From: an uncultured Clostridia bacterium
GTDB taxonomy: Bacteria; Bacillota; Clostridia; Oscillospirales; Acutalibacteraceae
Reading direction: 5' to 3'
Length of the DNA: 64,000 nt
NCBI GenBank assembly: GCA_946406145.1
Contig: CAMJJL010000001.1
Location: 62,001 to 126,000 of the forward strand
Shown: positions 53,109 to 64,000 of the stretch, one piece after another
Numbering within the stretch: position 1 is the stretch's first letter
How the letters are laid out: each line of letters starts with the position of its first letter
Position numbers and translations under genes: made by a program
Notes under the pieces: model-generated
Told to the model about the DNA's origin: nothing
Databases searched by the model: none
What the model saw: the letters and a program-made list of their open reading frames with translations, nothing else

Positions 53109-53924
53109 ATGGAAGAAAAAACAGTATTGGAACTTCAACAGGAATTAGTAAAACTGAAGAAGGCTCAGGCACGAATCAAGCGTAAATTTACTTTCCTGCT
53201 CAGCGTCATCGCCATGTTGGTTTTGATTACAGCGACGCTGGCGTGGTTTACGCTTTCTAATTTTGCGTCTGTCAACGATATTACATTGAAGATTTCTACT
53301 GCTCCCGAGTTGTATCTTGATATCGAGAACCGCGGCACGGACGTCACTCAGTGGAAAAAGACGCTGACGAATGACATGATCAATACATATCTTACCTCCG
53401 TTAACGCGAAAAAGCTGGAGGATCAACTGCTCGACCCGGTCACCTCATCGAACGGTATCAGCATGGCGAACCGTTCCGGAGCGACCCGTCAGGCAAATGA
53501 GGATTCGTTCCTCGAGTTTAAGGTCTGGTTTATCTCTACCGCGGACATGTGGGTTCACCTCTCCGGACAGAATGTGCAGGTCGACGGTCATGACGCCACC
53601 ACCGCTGTTTCTACTACGGAAACGGGCGCAAAGGCTGACGTTGTCCGAGCGATACGTCTTTCGTATGAGGACAGCGGTTCCGCCGCGATCTGGGAGCCGA
53701 ACAAGGGCGGCGCCGTAGCCGGTCAGAGCACCTTTGATGTATCCTCGACCTTCTCTAATGATACTCGCATCTTCCACCTCGACAAGCTCACGCCTAAGCA
53801 GCTCACCTTCCGTATCTGGCTCGAGGGTGAGGATCCCGAGTGTGATAACGATGTACAGGATGCGCAGATGACCGTACAGATGCTCTTCGGCGGTACGGAT
53901 GAAAACAACGCATCGTTCGATTAA
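53109..53924 (+). CDS. SipW-type signal peptide surface protein (filament-like subunit A)
   Basis: LLSVIAMLVLITATLAWFT signal; C-terminal RIWLEGEDPECDNDVQDAQMTVQMLF motif. Confidence 0.7.
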   Translation: MEEKTVLELQQELVKLKKAQARIKRKFTFLLSVIAMLVLITATLAWFTLSNFASVNDITLKISTAPELYLDIENRGTDVTQWKKTLTNDMINTYLTSVNAKKLEDQLLDPVTSSNGISMANRSGATRQANEDSFLEFKVWFISTADMWVHLSGQNVQVDGHDATTAVSTTETGAKADVVRAIRLSYEDSGSAAIWEPNKGGAVAGQSTFDVSSTFSNDTRIFHLDKLTPKQLTFRIWLEGEDPECDNDVQDAQMTVQMLFGGTDENNASFD

Positions 53925-54038
53925 TCCTATGGACGATCGTTGCGTGATTGATCGGTTTAAACGCGCACAGCGCGATTAAATACTTTGTATTTTTGTCCTA
54001 GGTGTTTGGGACATCAAAAAATTTAAGGAGGAATTCTC

Positions 54039-54830
54039 ATGACAAACACAAAGTTCAGAAAGAGAGCGTTACTCTCTTCCGTCGCAATGCTCCTCGTAGC
54101 TCTCGTAGCTCTTGGTTCCGCGACATTCGCATGGTTCACAGAAGATCCTAAAGCTGATGCGCAGGGCATTCCCGCTTACGCGCAGACCTCTAAAGGTCTT
54201 CTGATTTCCACTGATACCGATACAACACCTTCTCACCACGCTCAGTTGGCTAAGAGTGTAACCGGCATTTATCTTGCTCCCGCTACCACTAACAACGGTA
54301 CAGTTTACAAGACGATCGACGCGGCTGCTGCAAGCGCTCATACCCTTGATCCCGCGAAGACTTGGCAGCCCGCTACTATGAGAGATCATGTTGCCGGCAC
54401 AGGCGTTTATCAGGAGACCATGACTCTCCAGATGACTGCTCCTCCCACCGGTACTGCTACTCAGGTGGTTAACCTGACCGGCGTTAGCATTACTTTAGAC
54501 AATGCTTCTCACAAGATGGCAAGCGCTCTGGTCGTTACTCTGGCTTACGGCAGCACCGTGAAGCACTTCAGCGTATCCGGCGACGACGTTGCTACATGGA
54601 CTAATCTGACCGGTAATGGTTCCACTACCACAACCTCTACTCTGACTGTAGACGCGGCTGCAACCGGGTTAACTATTCCTGTCGGCACTTTCTCTTCCAG
54701 CACACAAACTATTCCTGTAGAGGTTTATGTATGGCTCAACGGTGAAGACAGCAATGTTTATACTGATAATTCTGATCCTTCGCAGTTGCTCCAGAGTGTT
54801 AAGTTTGACTTTGAACTCGCTTCTGCTTAA
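54039..54830 (+). CDS. SipW-dependent surface protein, probable major filament subunit
   Basis: RKRALLSSVAMLLVALVALGSATFAWFTED; TTTAAGGAGG RBS; strong GC hairpin downstream; VYVWLNGEDSN motif. Confidence 0.75.
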   Translation: MTNTKFRKRALLSSVAMLLVALVALGSATFAWFTEDPKADAQGIPAYAQTSKGLLISTDTDTTPSHHAQLAKSVTGIYLAPATTNNGTVYKTIDAAAASAHTLDPAKTWQPATMRDHVAGTGVYQETMTLQMTAPPTGTATQVVNLTGVSITLDNASHKMASALVVTLAYGSTVKHFSVSGDDVATWTNLTGNGSTTTTSTLTVDAAATGLTIPVGTFSSSTQTIPVEVYVWLNGEDSNVYTDNSDPSQLLQSVKFDFELASA

Positions 54831-54916
54831 TCAGTACGACATACTTTAAGATCGTTTCAGGTATTTAACGGTAGTCTAATTACCTAAGAGATTTCTCTTT
54901 TAAATTATCATAGAAC

Positions 54917-61421: not shown

Positions 61422-61464
61422 CACACCGCGATTTAATAAAAATACCACAGAAAGGAGCGATACG

Positions 61465-62580
61465 ATGAAAAGCCAAAAGCAAAACCGTCATTCCTTGATG
61501 GCAAAAGGTATCATGGTATTGCTCTCTTTACTTGTCTTATTATTTGCGTTTACTTACTCGTGGTTTTCACCCCCGGATAAACCGGTTGATGCCACCGGGG
61601 TAGGTGCAAGCGTGAAAGCGAATGGTGACTTTGAGTATGCTGTCGGTTTTTATAACAGCGGAACAGCCGGTGATTATAAAGTAACCGCTTTCAGCAACCA
61701 AAGCAGTACGTTGAATTTGACGAATCTTCAGGCAAAAGGTGCGAACGACTCCGGCTACACAAGCTATAACCTTTTGCATGATTATAAACCAATTGATGTG
61801 ACTGGTGACGGAGTGAATTTGATTCGTCCCGCAATGAGCTACGGAAACAGCTCTATCAACACTTCGTCACTTAACTATTCTGTTGCAAACCCGAATGAAC
61901 AGTATATTTCTTTTGATTTATACTTTCGCAGTAAATCACAGGGGATTTCGGTTAAACTCGGTGATGATTCCTGGGCAAAGGGTGGCGCTGAAGTTACTTC
62001 CGGTGGCAGTATGATCGGCGCGAATGCTACCAATAAGTCTAATTATGGTAATTTCTCGAAAGATGCTGTTGTCGGCGCCGTAAGAGTAGCTTTTACTAAC
62101 TATGATTACTCCGCTGAACTTGACAATATGCCCGGTAACTTAGAAGAGTATCAGGTAAATTCTCCGCAGTTTTTACATAATGAATCTGAGTTTATCTGGT
62201 TGCCCAGATCGGATTTACATGTTAATACAAATGATACGATGACCGGTTGGACGCTGAATATCAACGATCCGGCTCAGGCTGTCGATCAACAGCATAAGTT
62301 TTACAATATCTTCAAGTGTCAGCCGGCAAAGGCTGACGGATATCCTTCATCCGATACAGCTCATTATCACGTCGAAGAATTATATGATAGCAGCAAGACG
62401 GTTACGAAGGATGATTTGGATGCTGCGAGTCAGTCTTTCTCCAATCTGTCTATGCATTTTGGCGAGTATTATTATACGAAGGTCAATGTTCGTATTTGGA
62501 TCGAAGGAACTGATAATGAATCTCGTCGCGCAACCTCCGGCGGACAGTATGAGGTTAATTTCGAGTTTTCCACTACTTGA
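61465..62580 (+). CDS. SipW-type signal peptide surface protein
   Basis: GIMVLLSLLVLLFAFTYSWFS signal; C-terminal VRIWIEGTDNESRR..YEVNFEF; AAAGGAG RBS, ATG 61465. Confidence 0.7.
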   Translation: MKSQKQNRHSLMAKGIMVLLSLLVLLFAFTYSWFSPPDKPVDATGVGASVKANGDFEYAVGFYNSGTAGDYKVTAFSNQSSTLNLTNLQAKGANDSGYTSYNLLHDYKPIDVTGDGVNLIRPAMSYGNSSINTSSLNYSVANPNEQYISFDLYFRSKSQGISVKLGDDSWAKGGAEVTSGGSMIGANATNKSNYGNFSKDAVVGAVRVAFTNYDYSAELDNMPGNLEEYQVNSPQFLHNESEFIWLPRSDLHVNTNDTMTGWTLNINDPAQAVDQQHKFYNIFKCQPAKADGYPSSDTAHYHVEELYDSSKTVTKDDLDAASQSFSNLSMHFGEYYYTKVNVRIWIEGTDNESRRATSGGQYEVNFEFSTT

Positions 62581-62680
62581 TTTTGAATGGTCTGTCAATG
62601 GCTGGATTATTGATTGAGGATAGCATTATTATTGTGTGATTGTTCAGACCGGTAGGACGAACAATTCCGGAGCAGATATT

Positions 62681-64000
62681 ATGAGTAGAAATTCATCTAA
62701 CAAGAAAAAATCTACAAGTAAATATCGTAAGTTCAAAGTATCTCCTCTGATTGCCGTTATCGCAATCATTGAGGTGTTGGTTCTTATTGCCATTTCCTCC
62801 TATGCGTGGTTTATTGTAGTACGTGAGAAGCAGGCTAACACTGGTTTGATTTCCGTGGATGCGGATTCCGGCTTGAATATTGACTTCAAAAATGCGAACT
62901 ATGACGATAATATTAACCTATGGGATTATGTTGAAGATGATTTTGAGTTCAGTCCCGTAACATCTCTTGACGGACGAAACGTATTTGTTCCCACTTCCGG
63001 AACATTCGGTAATGATACAACGAATAAAATCGTTTTTCGTGATGCAACGATCAACGATATCAACACAAAATACGTTGACGTTGATTTTACCTTGACCAAT
63101 ACCAACGATAGTGAAGTCTATGTATATTTGAATAATGAATCTCATTTCAGAGTATATGATAATGCTGTTGCTCAGAATGGTGAAGAGATGAAGAACAGTC
63201 GCGCCCTGCGTCTGGCGTTCTATACGAATGACGCGAAGCACGGTAACGTTGGATCATCCATTCTTGAGAATACCAACAACGAGAATGCGGCGCTTGATAA
63301 ACTTGAGAATCGTGTTACCGTATATTTCAACAAACCTTCGCATTGGAACAATTGCTATGCCTATATCTGGAAACGTGTTAACTCCACAAACTATGAGGCT
63401 GTTTCCTGGCCGGGCAGCGAAATGACACACGTTGCCGGTACCGTGTATTCCTATACATTCTCTAATGTGGAAGAATATACCAGCATTGTATTTAACAACG
63501 GACAAAAAGATAATACAGTTACTTATGACAGCTCGCATACTACTACCTATACTCAGACTCGAGATCTGAGTATCTATACGCCTTCGAGCAGCTCTGATCC
63601 ATCCCATCTGTATGAAGGTAGTGCAGCTGCAAATTCAACCGGTTCAGCGTATAGGACAAAAACCGTCTATTTCCGCAAGCCGAATGACTGGACCGGAGTA
63701 CGCGCTCATGCGTTTAGAACACCCAATGAAACTAACTCACCTTCATTTACATCTTATCCCGGTGACGAATGCACTAACTGCGGCGCGGATATTTATTCTT
63801 ATACTTTCCCTGAGACCTACAACGGTAATACAATGGGCGGCATCGTTTTCAATAACCTTGCCAATCAAGATAACAAAACCCAAGACTTGGCAGCTGATGA
63901 CGGGGCGCTGTATTATTTCTCCAACGGCGGTTCCAATGGCGCTTGTACAAAAACGACATACTCCGAGAGTACTGTTTATTTTAATAATATCTTCAACTGG
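62681..64000 (+). CDS. surface protein with SipW-like signal and tandem CBM26-like starch-binding modules (3' end beyond window; absent from ORF track)
   Basis: 440 uninterrupted codons from ATG 62681; IAISSYAWFIVVR; repeats VTVYFNKPSHWNNCYAYIWKR..AVSWPGSEM..YSYTF..IVFNNG and KTVYFRKPNDWTGVRAHAF..SYPGDE..YSYTF..IVFNN, third starting STVYFNNIFNW. Confidence 0.8.
   Translation, partial: MSRNSSNKKKSTSKYRKFKVSPLIAVIAIIEVLVLIAISSYAWFIVVREKQANTGLISVDADSGLNIDFKNANYDDNINLWDYVEDDFEFSPVTSLDGRNVFVPTSGTFGNDTTNKIVFRDATINDINTKYVDVDFTLTNTNDSEVYVYLNNESHFRVYDNAVAQNGEEMKNSRALRLAFYTNDAKHGNVGSSILENTNNENAALDKLENRVTVYFNKPSHWNNCYAYIWKRVNSTNYEAVSWPGSEMTHVAGTVYSYTFSNVEEYTSIVFNNGQKDNTVTYDSSHTTTYTQTRDLSIYTPSSSSDPSHLYEGSAAANSTGSAYRTKTVYFRKPNDWTGVRAHAFRTPNETNSPSFTSYPGDECTNCGADIYSYTFPETYNGNTMGGIVFNNLANQDNKTQDLAADDGALYYFSNGGSNGACTKTTYSESTVYFNNIFNW

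Follow-up and report, generated by a model that had tools for sequence, protein, structure and literature searches.

A conserved, largely undescribed surface locus in a Ruminococcus genome, with SipW-type subunits and a CoCoPALM-like McrB/McrC pair

We examined a stretch of 64,000 nucleotides, referred to as the window, which corresponds to bases 62001 to 126000 of a 150-kb contig (CAMJJL010000001.1) in a 2.4-Mb assembly (GCA_946406145.1) from a gut or rumen Ruminococcus. The subject is a surface locus of about 20 kb that contains genes for a family of secreted subunits with SipW-type signals, two signal peptidases, a membrane-anchored member of the subunit family, and a McrB-like nucleoside triphosphatase (NTPase) with a McrC-like partner, and in which one subunit carries modules of the carbohydrate-binding family CBM26. 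The locus passes the end of the window at position 64,000 and runs to window-equivalent position 72808, where it is followed by radC and uvrB. The following features were identified:

53109 to 53924, forward strand: pilA, secreted subunit 1 (271 amino acids), with the SipW-type signal TLAWF and a C-terminal WLEGEDPEC; aligned to the other subunit families with hhalign
54039 to 54830, forward strand: pilB, secreted subunit 2 (263 amino acids), with the signal TFAWF; conserved more widely than the other subunits, with an all-beta model (pLDDT 80)
55264 to 56208, forward strand, with a likely start at about 55327: sip1, SipW/ER-type (endoplasmic reticulum-type) signal peptidase, matching NF046067 at 2.5e-19 and TIGR02228 above the cut-off
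56294 to 57238, forward strand: anc, anchored by a transmembrane segment and without a cleavage-type motif; the ectodomain shares with the subunits the C-terminal half of their domain, with WIEGEDPEC
57336 to 58868, forward strand: McrB-like NTPase (510 amino acids), with an N-terminal transmembrane segment, a short coiled coil, Walker A GISGTGKT, Walker B LDEMN, and GTANNDD
58995 to 61421, forward strand: McrC-like protein, with DUF2357 (residues 56 to 169) followed by a coiled coil of about 500 amino acids
61465 to 62580, forward strand: pilC, secreted subunit 3 (371 amino acids), with the signal TYSWF and WIEGTD
62681 to 64000 and on to window-equivalent 65869, forward strand: cbm, decorated subunit (1062 amino acids in full), with the signal SYAWF and a subunit domain that is split by the CBM26 modules and ends with WLEGTD at residue 607
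63320 to 63511, forward strand: CBM26 module 1, aromatic residues kept (CYAYIW...SWPG)
63665 to 63886, forward strand: CBM26 module 2, aromatic residues partly degenerate
63974 to 64000, continuing past the window, forward strand: start of CBM26-like module 3, aromatic residues lost
Window-equivalent 72221 to 72808: sip2, second SipW-type signal peptidase, by model matches (TIGR02228 above the cut-off)

All five open reading frames (ORFs) on which the original prediction was built (at 53109, 54039, 56294, 61465, and 62681) were present, and the C-terminal motif that it had proposed was found, as W-[I/L]-[E/N]-G-x-D, in each of them: WLEGED at residue 237 of pilA, WLNGED at residue 232 of pilB, WIEGED at residue 284 of anc, WIEGTD at residue 345 of pilC, and the WLEGTD of cbm. 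A common signal had also been proposed for the five, and a transmembrane segment followed by [AST][FYL][AS]W[FILVY] was indeed found in four, whereas anc contained the transmembrane segment without the signal motif and looks like an uncleaved membrane anchor. Neither the signal motif nor the WxEG motif was found in any of 108 control ORFs (150 amino acids or longer) taken from other loci and from elsewhere in the window, so that their sharing is not due to chance. Profile-profile comparisons with hhalign gave E-values of 2e-25 for the pilB family against the pilA family, 1.6e-22 for pilA against pilC, and 7e-12 for pilA against anc. Judged by these alignments, the named proteins are one homologous domain family, of which the WxEG motif is the visible part. 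It was also noted that no protein of the locus contained an LPxTG motif, and sortase pili were rejected for this reason.

The protein encoded at 62681 had been taken for the last one, but when the locus was followed beyond the window, the stop codon of this gene at 65869 was found to be succeeded by genes for secreted proteins of 857, 949, and 203 amino acids and then by the second signal peptidase gene. The 949 amino acid protein (L002:4586-7435, window-equivalent 68586 to 71435) contained an InlB-type repeat, lacked an AWF site, and was the weakest member of the set. Scans of the sequence for promoters and terminators gave results no better than those for shuffled sequences, and a scan against Rfam identified tRNA only.

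A dedicated SipW-like peptidase, as originally predicted, was present, and in fact there were two. The products of sip1 and sip2 matched the SipW/ER-type models NF046067, TIGR02228, and PF10502, and the term "dedicated" is justified because they were the only proteins in the genome above the TIGR02228 cut-off; a match to the NCBIfam cognate_SipW model was sub-threshold only. Residues Ser85 and His141 of Sip1 (numbered from the GTG start of the ORF) were conserved, and Ser and His were kept in 95% of 115 homologues, without a conserved Lys. By these sequence features, both peptidases classify as members of the S26 family of the Ser-His, ER type.

The genes at 57336 and 58995, which were absent from the list in the original prediction, were the two most conserved genes of the locus and were located centrally in the operon. 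A profile of the protein encoded at 57336 matched the E. coli McrB structures 6hz4 and 6ut6 at 2e-8 over residues 198 to 411, approximately. The Walker A motif was present in 81 of 81 homologues, Walker B in 78, and NxDD in all 81; the conserved GTxNxDD fits the signature of CoCoPALM (see below), in which NxD followed by D or E replaces NxxD, and an ungapped alignment to the E. coli NTAD fits NxxD as well. The transmembrane segment (residues 58 to 76, approximately) was preceded by a mean net charge of -0.6 and followed by one of +4.9 in the 81 homologues, and by the positive-inside rule the NTPase domain and C-terminus are thus cytoplasmic. A conserved heptad-like helix followed the segment; its similarity to FtsB/DivIC, which is a trait of the N-terminal domain in CoCoPALM, was not significant (DivIC, E=0.19). 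The McrC-like protein matched PF09823 (DUF2357) at 3e-7, above the cut-off, in addition to its long coiled coil, and shorter McrC homologues contained DUF2357 only. The matches listed for the McrC of the window and for five homologues included no nuclease family, PD-(D/E)xK or other, and a canonical McrBC type IV restriction system was rejected since the nuclease was not found.

This combination with signal peptidases has been named CoCoPALM in section 7 of the CoCoNuT paper (Bell et al. 2024, PMC11090510), where its treatment is deferred to a later publication; our literature search found CoCoPALM treated only in that paper and its preprint. The locus resembles CoCoPALM in having a McrB-like NTPase with an N-terminal transmembrane segment and putative coiled coil, a DUF2357 McrC with a coiled coil, and signal peptidase neighbors, whereas the main text of the publication is without an account of the subunit family, the second peptidase, the CBM26 decoration, or the exchange of cassettes. 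Judged by gene composition, we classify the locus as a putative CoCoPALM system. The kind already has a name; the locus itself is a real and conserved surface system that is largely undescribed, a variant for which the cargo is identified. A precedent for a McrB-family protein outside restriction is PcdA of S. aureus, which acts in the choice of division plane (PMC10602043). PcdA is likewise an NTPase that was recruited from restriction into a different function of the cell, but it has EVE domains, its partners are FtsZ and DivIVA, and its role is in division.

To study the conservation of the locus, GTDB species genomes were scanned with the McrB alignment, which yielded at least 569 confirmed stretches, and the best 80 loci were kept, mostly from gut and rumen Ruminococcus, other Oscillospiraceae and Clostridia, and metagenome-assembled genomes of Bacilli. 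Among the 50 loci flanked on either side by 3.5 kb or more of sequence, all contained a SipW-like peptidase and a McrC homologue, and 47 contained at least 2 proteins with SipW/WxEG features. The gene order was conserved across related loci. In these sequence comparisons, the subunits, the peptidases, the anchored member, the NTPase, and the McrC-like partner were shown to be kept together across Bacillota. McrB homologues were identified in 25 of 35 other sampled genomes of the same genus and, at E<=1e-80, in 30 of 300 genomes of the order; a phylum-wide search retrieved for the most part ordinary McrBs with scores of about 100 bits, which are not CoCoPALM.

Several variants were observed. 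Six loci in Bacilli (L132, L137, L142, L149, L151, and L152) encoded a short McrC (362 to 394 amino acids) with little or no coiled coil, and most of them had extra transmembrane proteins and peptidases clustered upstream of mcrB, possibly representing a distinct subtype. Loci of the Christensenellaceae type (L133, L143, L148, and L153) contained a signal peptidase gene between mcrB and mcrC. At G505:C37:135223-139188 and G561:C29:2695-6660, two tandem McrB homologues matched only from residue 144, approximately, and were apparently without the transmembrane and coiled-coil N-terminus.

The patterns of divergence were examined in three close species (G012, G017, and G035), in which UvrB was 96% to 99% identical to that of the present genome. 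Identities were high for McrB (97% to 99%), Anc (87% to 96%), McrC (84% to 95%), and PilA (77% to 80%), and lower for PilB (33% to 43%), Sip1 (48% to 53%), and the downstream surface proteins (24% to 49%); for Sip2 they were 48% to 60%. One recurring cassette type, with 52% to 73% identity, was found in L024, L077, and L078 and contained the CBM26 insertion described below, and a second, with 44% to 68% identity, was found in L025, L075, and L079 and was without it. In Mantel permutations on 26 loci, with relatedness handled through regression on McrB alone, the identity of Sip1 covaried with that of PilA, PilB, and Anc (r=0.43 to 0.57, p=0.001), whereas the value for PilC was only 0.16, and McrC showed no excess covariation with the surface genes. 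The covariation is suggestive of an exchange of cognate peptidase and cargo, and the identities point to a constant machine with cargo exchanged between species.

The tandem CBM26-like modules predicted for the protein encoded at 62681 were confirmed by a match to PF16738 (E=4e-23; 81.8 bits against a cut-off of 28.1) in two stretches, with a third, degenerate copy. The Tyr/Trp positions, which in work on the B. halodurans CBM26 are reported to bind the ligand, were kept in module 1. A phmmer search against the PDB with the single module identified Amy16 of R. bromii (9qf9) as the nearest solved CBM26; the full-length protein gave zero matches. A model of 700 amino acids had a predicted local distance difference test (pLDDT) score of 65 and was used for the CBM26 region alone, which matched the CBM26 of Amy13K (6b15) with E=3e-6 and that of B. 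halodurans with a probability of 1.0. The position of the modules was taken from an alignment of 18 homologues and not from this low-confidence model: 8 homologues, the window protein included, contained a CBM26-bearing insertion of about 250 to 350 residues that separates the ALRLAF strand of the subunit domain from the VISPG strand, and the other 10 had a short loop at this place. Of the starch-binding tip or decoration that had been envisaged, the tip is therefore doubtful, since the modules are located inside the subunit domain and are not appended to it, which suggests a decorated subunit. Elsewhere in the Ruminococcus loci, CBM26 was mostly C-terminal. With an iterated profile, CBM26 was detected in 19 of the 32 Ruminococcus-type loci in which the downstream sequence was long enough and in 0 of 23 others, and the Pfam model itself matched 18 of the 21 such proteins tested.

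Starch is a plausible ligand of this protein because the host genome contained 21 CBM26, 20 GH13, and 75 dockerin matches, which support that the host is a starch degrader; CBM26 is common in the lineage, and its ready recruitment could equally account for its presence. CBM26 is also found on cell-surface proteins of the R. bromii amylosome (Sas20, Amy4, and Amy16; PMC9112005, PMC5814915), but these are assembled by cohesin-dockerin pairing, whereas here the modules are located in a SipW-type subunit without a dockerin or sortase motif. The domain scan identified no dockerin in the protein encoded at 62681, and attachment by this route was rejected. Elsewhere in the window, positions 14485 to 19413 encoded a secreted GH13 amylase of 1642 amino acids with two CBM26 modules and repeats of the WKNYDG type.

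The original prediction of a TasA/CalY-like fiber was borne out with regard to the secreted subunit family and the dedicated peptidases but not with regard to membership in TasA/CalY, since PF12389 (TasA/camelysin) had zero matches in the genome and in Pfam scans of the subunits, and searches of PDB chains with the subunit profiles were also blank. The structure prediction that had been suggested as a check was made for PilB (pLDDT 80, predicted TM-score 0.75), and the model was all-beta except for the signal/transmembrane helix, with low confidence in the region after that helix. Its top match in Foldseek was the TasA fiber 8aur, so that a TasA-like fold is weakly supported by the model; that the subunits work like those of TasA is a hypothesis, and we do not assign them to the TasA family. 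The tapA-sipW-tasA and CalY fibers of Bacillus are alike in the SipW-type peptidase, the cognate-type signal, and the beta-rich subunits, but the present locus is without PF12389, has an NTPase with a coiled-coil partner, and encodes many large, diversified subunits.

The best explanation of the whole, which we consider reasonably probable, is a surface structure of SipW-type subunits that is assembled with the McrB/McrC machine, is partly starch-binding, and has an exchangeable cassette. The peptidases would free the subunits at the outer face of the membrane, and the subunits would then polymerize into filaments, probably with beta-strands complementing each other as they do in TasA, on a seed or anchor provided by Anc. 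The DUF2357 domain of McrC would switch on the McrB ring, which the McrC coiled coil would organize and which would drive or position assembly from the cytoplasmic side. The CBM26 presented from a loop of the decorated subunit would tether the cell to starch, and the surface cassette would be swapped between species while the machine stayed constant. Only tentatively do we suggest a new class of filaments in gut Bacillota, free of sortases and pilus ATPases, for which a membrane-anchored NTPase ring derived from McrBC would act together with a coiled-coil partner as the motor of assembly or positioning. The exchange of subunit cassettes between species would then alter the target to which the cell attaches, here starch.

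Several points weigh against such an assembled structure. The match of PilB to 8aur was below significance (E=0.028, probability 0.63, TM-score 0.24, among 350,542 PDB chains); the termini of TasA are not the same in the fiber as in the monomer (PMC9674648), and this could lower the TM-score. The link between the NTPase and assembly is drawn from gene association only, starch binding is predicted from the family and the aromatic residues, and we found no filament reported in the literature for any CoCoPALM. Moreover, the comparison loci were chosen by McrB similarity, with more distant CoCoPALM-like McrBs outside the sample.

The likeliest alternative, although an unlikely one, is a set of adhesins or a coat without a true filament, in which the SipW-type proteins would be released, individually anchored, or arranged in a surface layer, with McrB/McrC controlling export or position. 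The large multidomain members (1062, 857, and 949 amino acids), which have CBM26, InlB, and Ig-like repeats in this locus or in related ones and look like adhesins, the weak match to TasA, and the absence of donor-strand evidence fit this explanation, but several small homologous subunits encoded beside a membrane-anchored member are what one would expect for a polymer that stands on a base, and PilA and PilB (263 to 271 amino acids) are without extra binding modules. That the locus is a plain matrix fiber operon of the TasA/CalY type, with the McrBC-like genes as regulatory bystanders, seems improbable: the SipW-type peptidases and signals, the top fold match, and the naming of one homologue by its Joint Genome Institute source as a protein with a SipW-like signal peptide are set against the fact that McrB and McrC were the most conserved, always present, and central in the operon, that PF12389 was unmatched, and that the tapA-sipW-tasA operon is without an NTPase (PMC9674648). 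Least probable of all, in our estimate, is an anti-phage system in which a McrBC-derived defense module acts with secreted proteins for surface recognition or exclusion. The window McrB matched the PADLOC candidate PDC-M26A at 1e-34, in line with a McrBC ancestry, and the surface genes diverged strongly between close species, as in phage-exposed antigens; however, no nuclease or other effector was found in the McrC homologues scanned, the linkage to peptidase and subunits was constant, and the CBM26 decoration points to diet.

CoCoPALM has so far been a name without a function, and the locus supplies a cargo, the SipW-type subunits, and a candidate ligand, starch via CBM26. With the pattern of an unchanging NTPase machine whose peptidase and cargo can be exchanged, the assembly hypothesis can be put to a direct test. 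If it is true, bacteria that are abundant in the gut and rumen have turned an antiviral restriction machine into an assembler of surface structures, and the attachment of Ruminococcus to starch particles has a second route besides the amylosome.

Upstream of the surface locus, positions 29000 to 51077 of the window contained a probable integrated mobile element, with helicase/primase-like and phage-tail-like genes upstream of a tyrosine recombinase gene. The recombinase gene (49530 to 50873) adjoins a tRNA-Ser (50988 to 51077), and the surface locus is located just outside this putative element.

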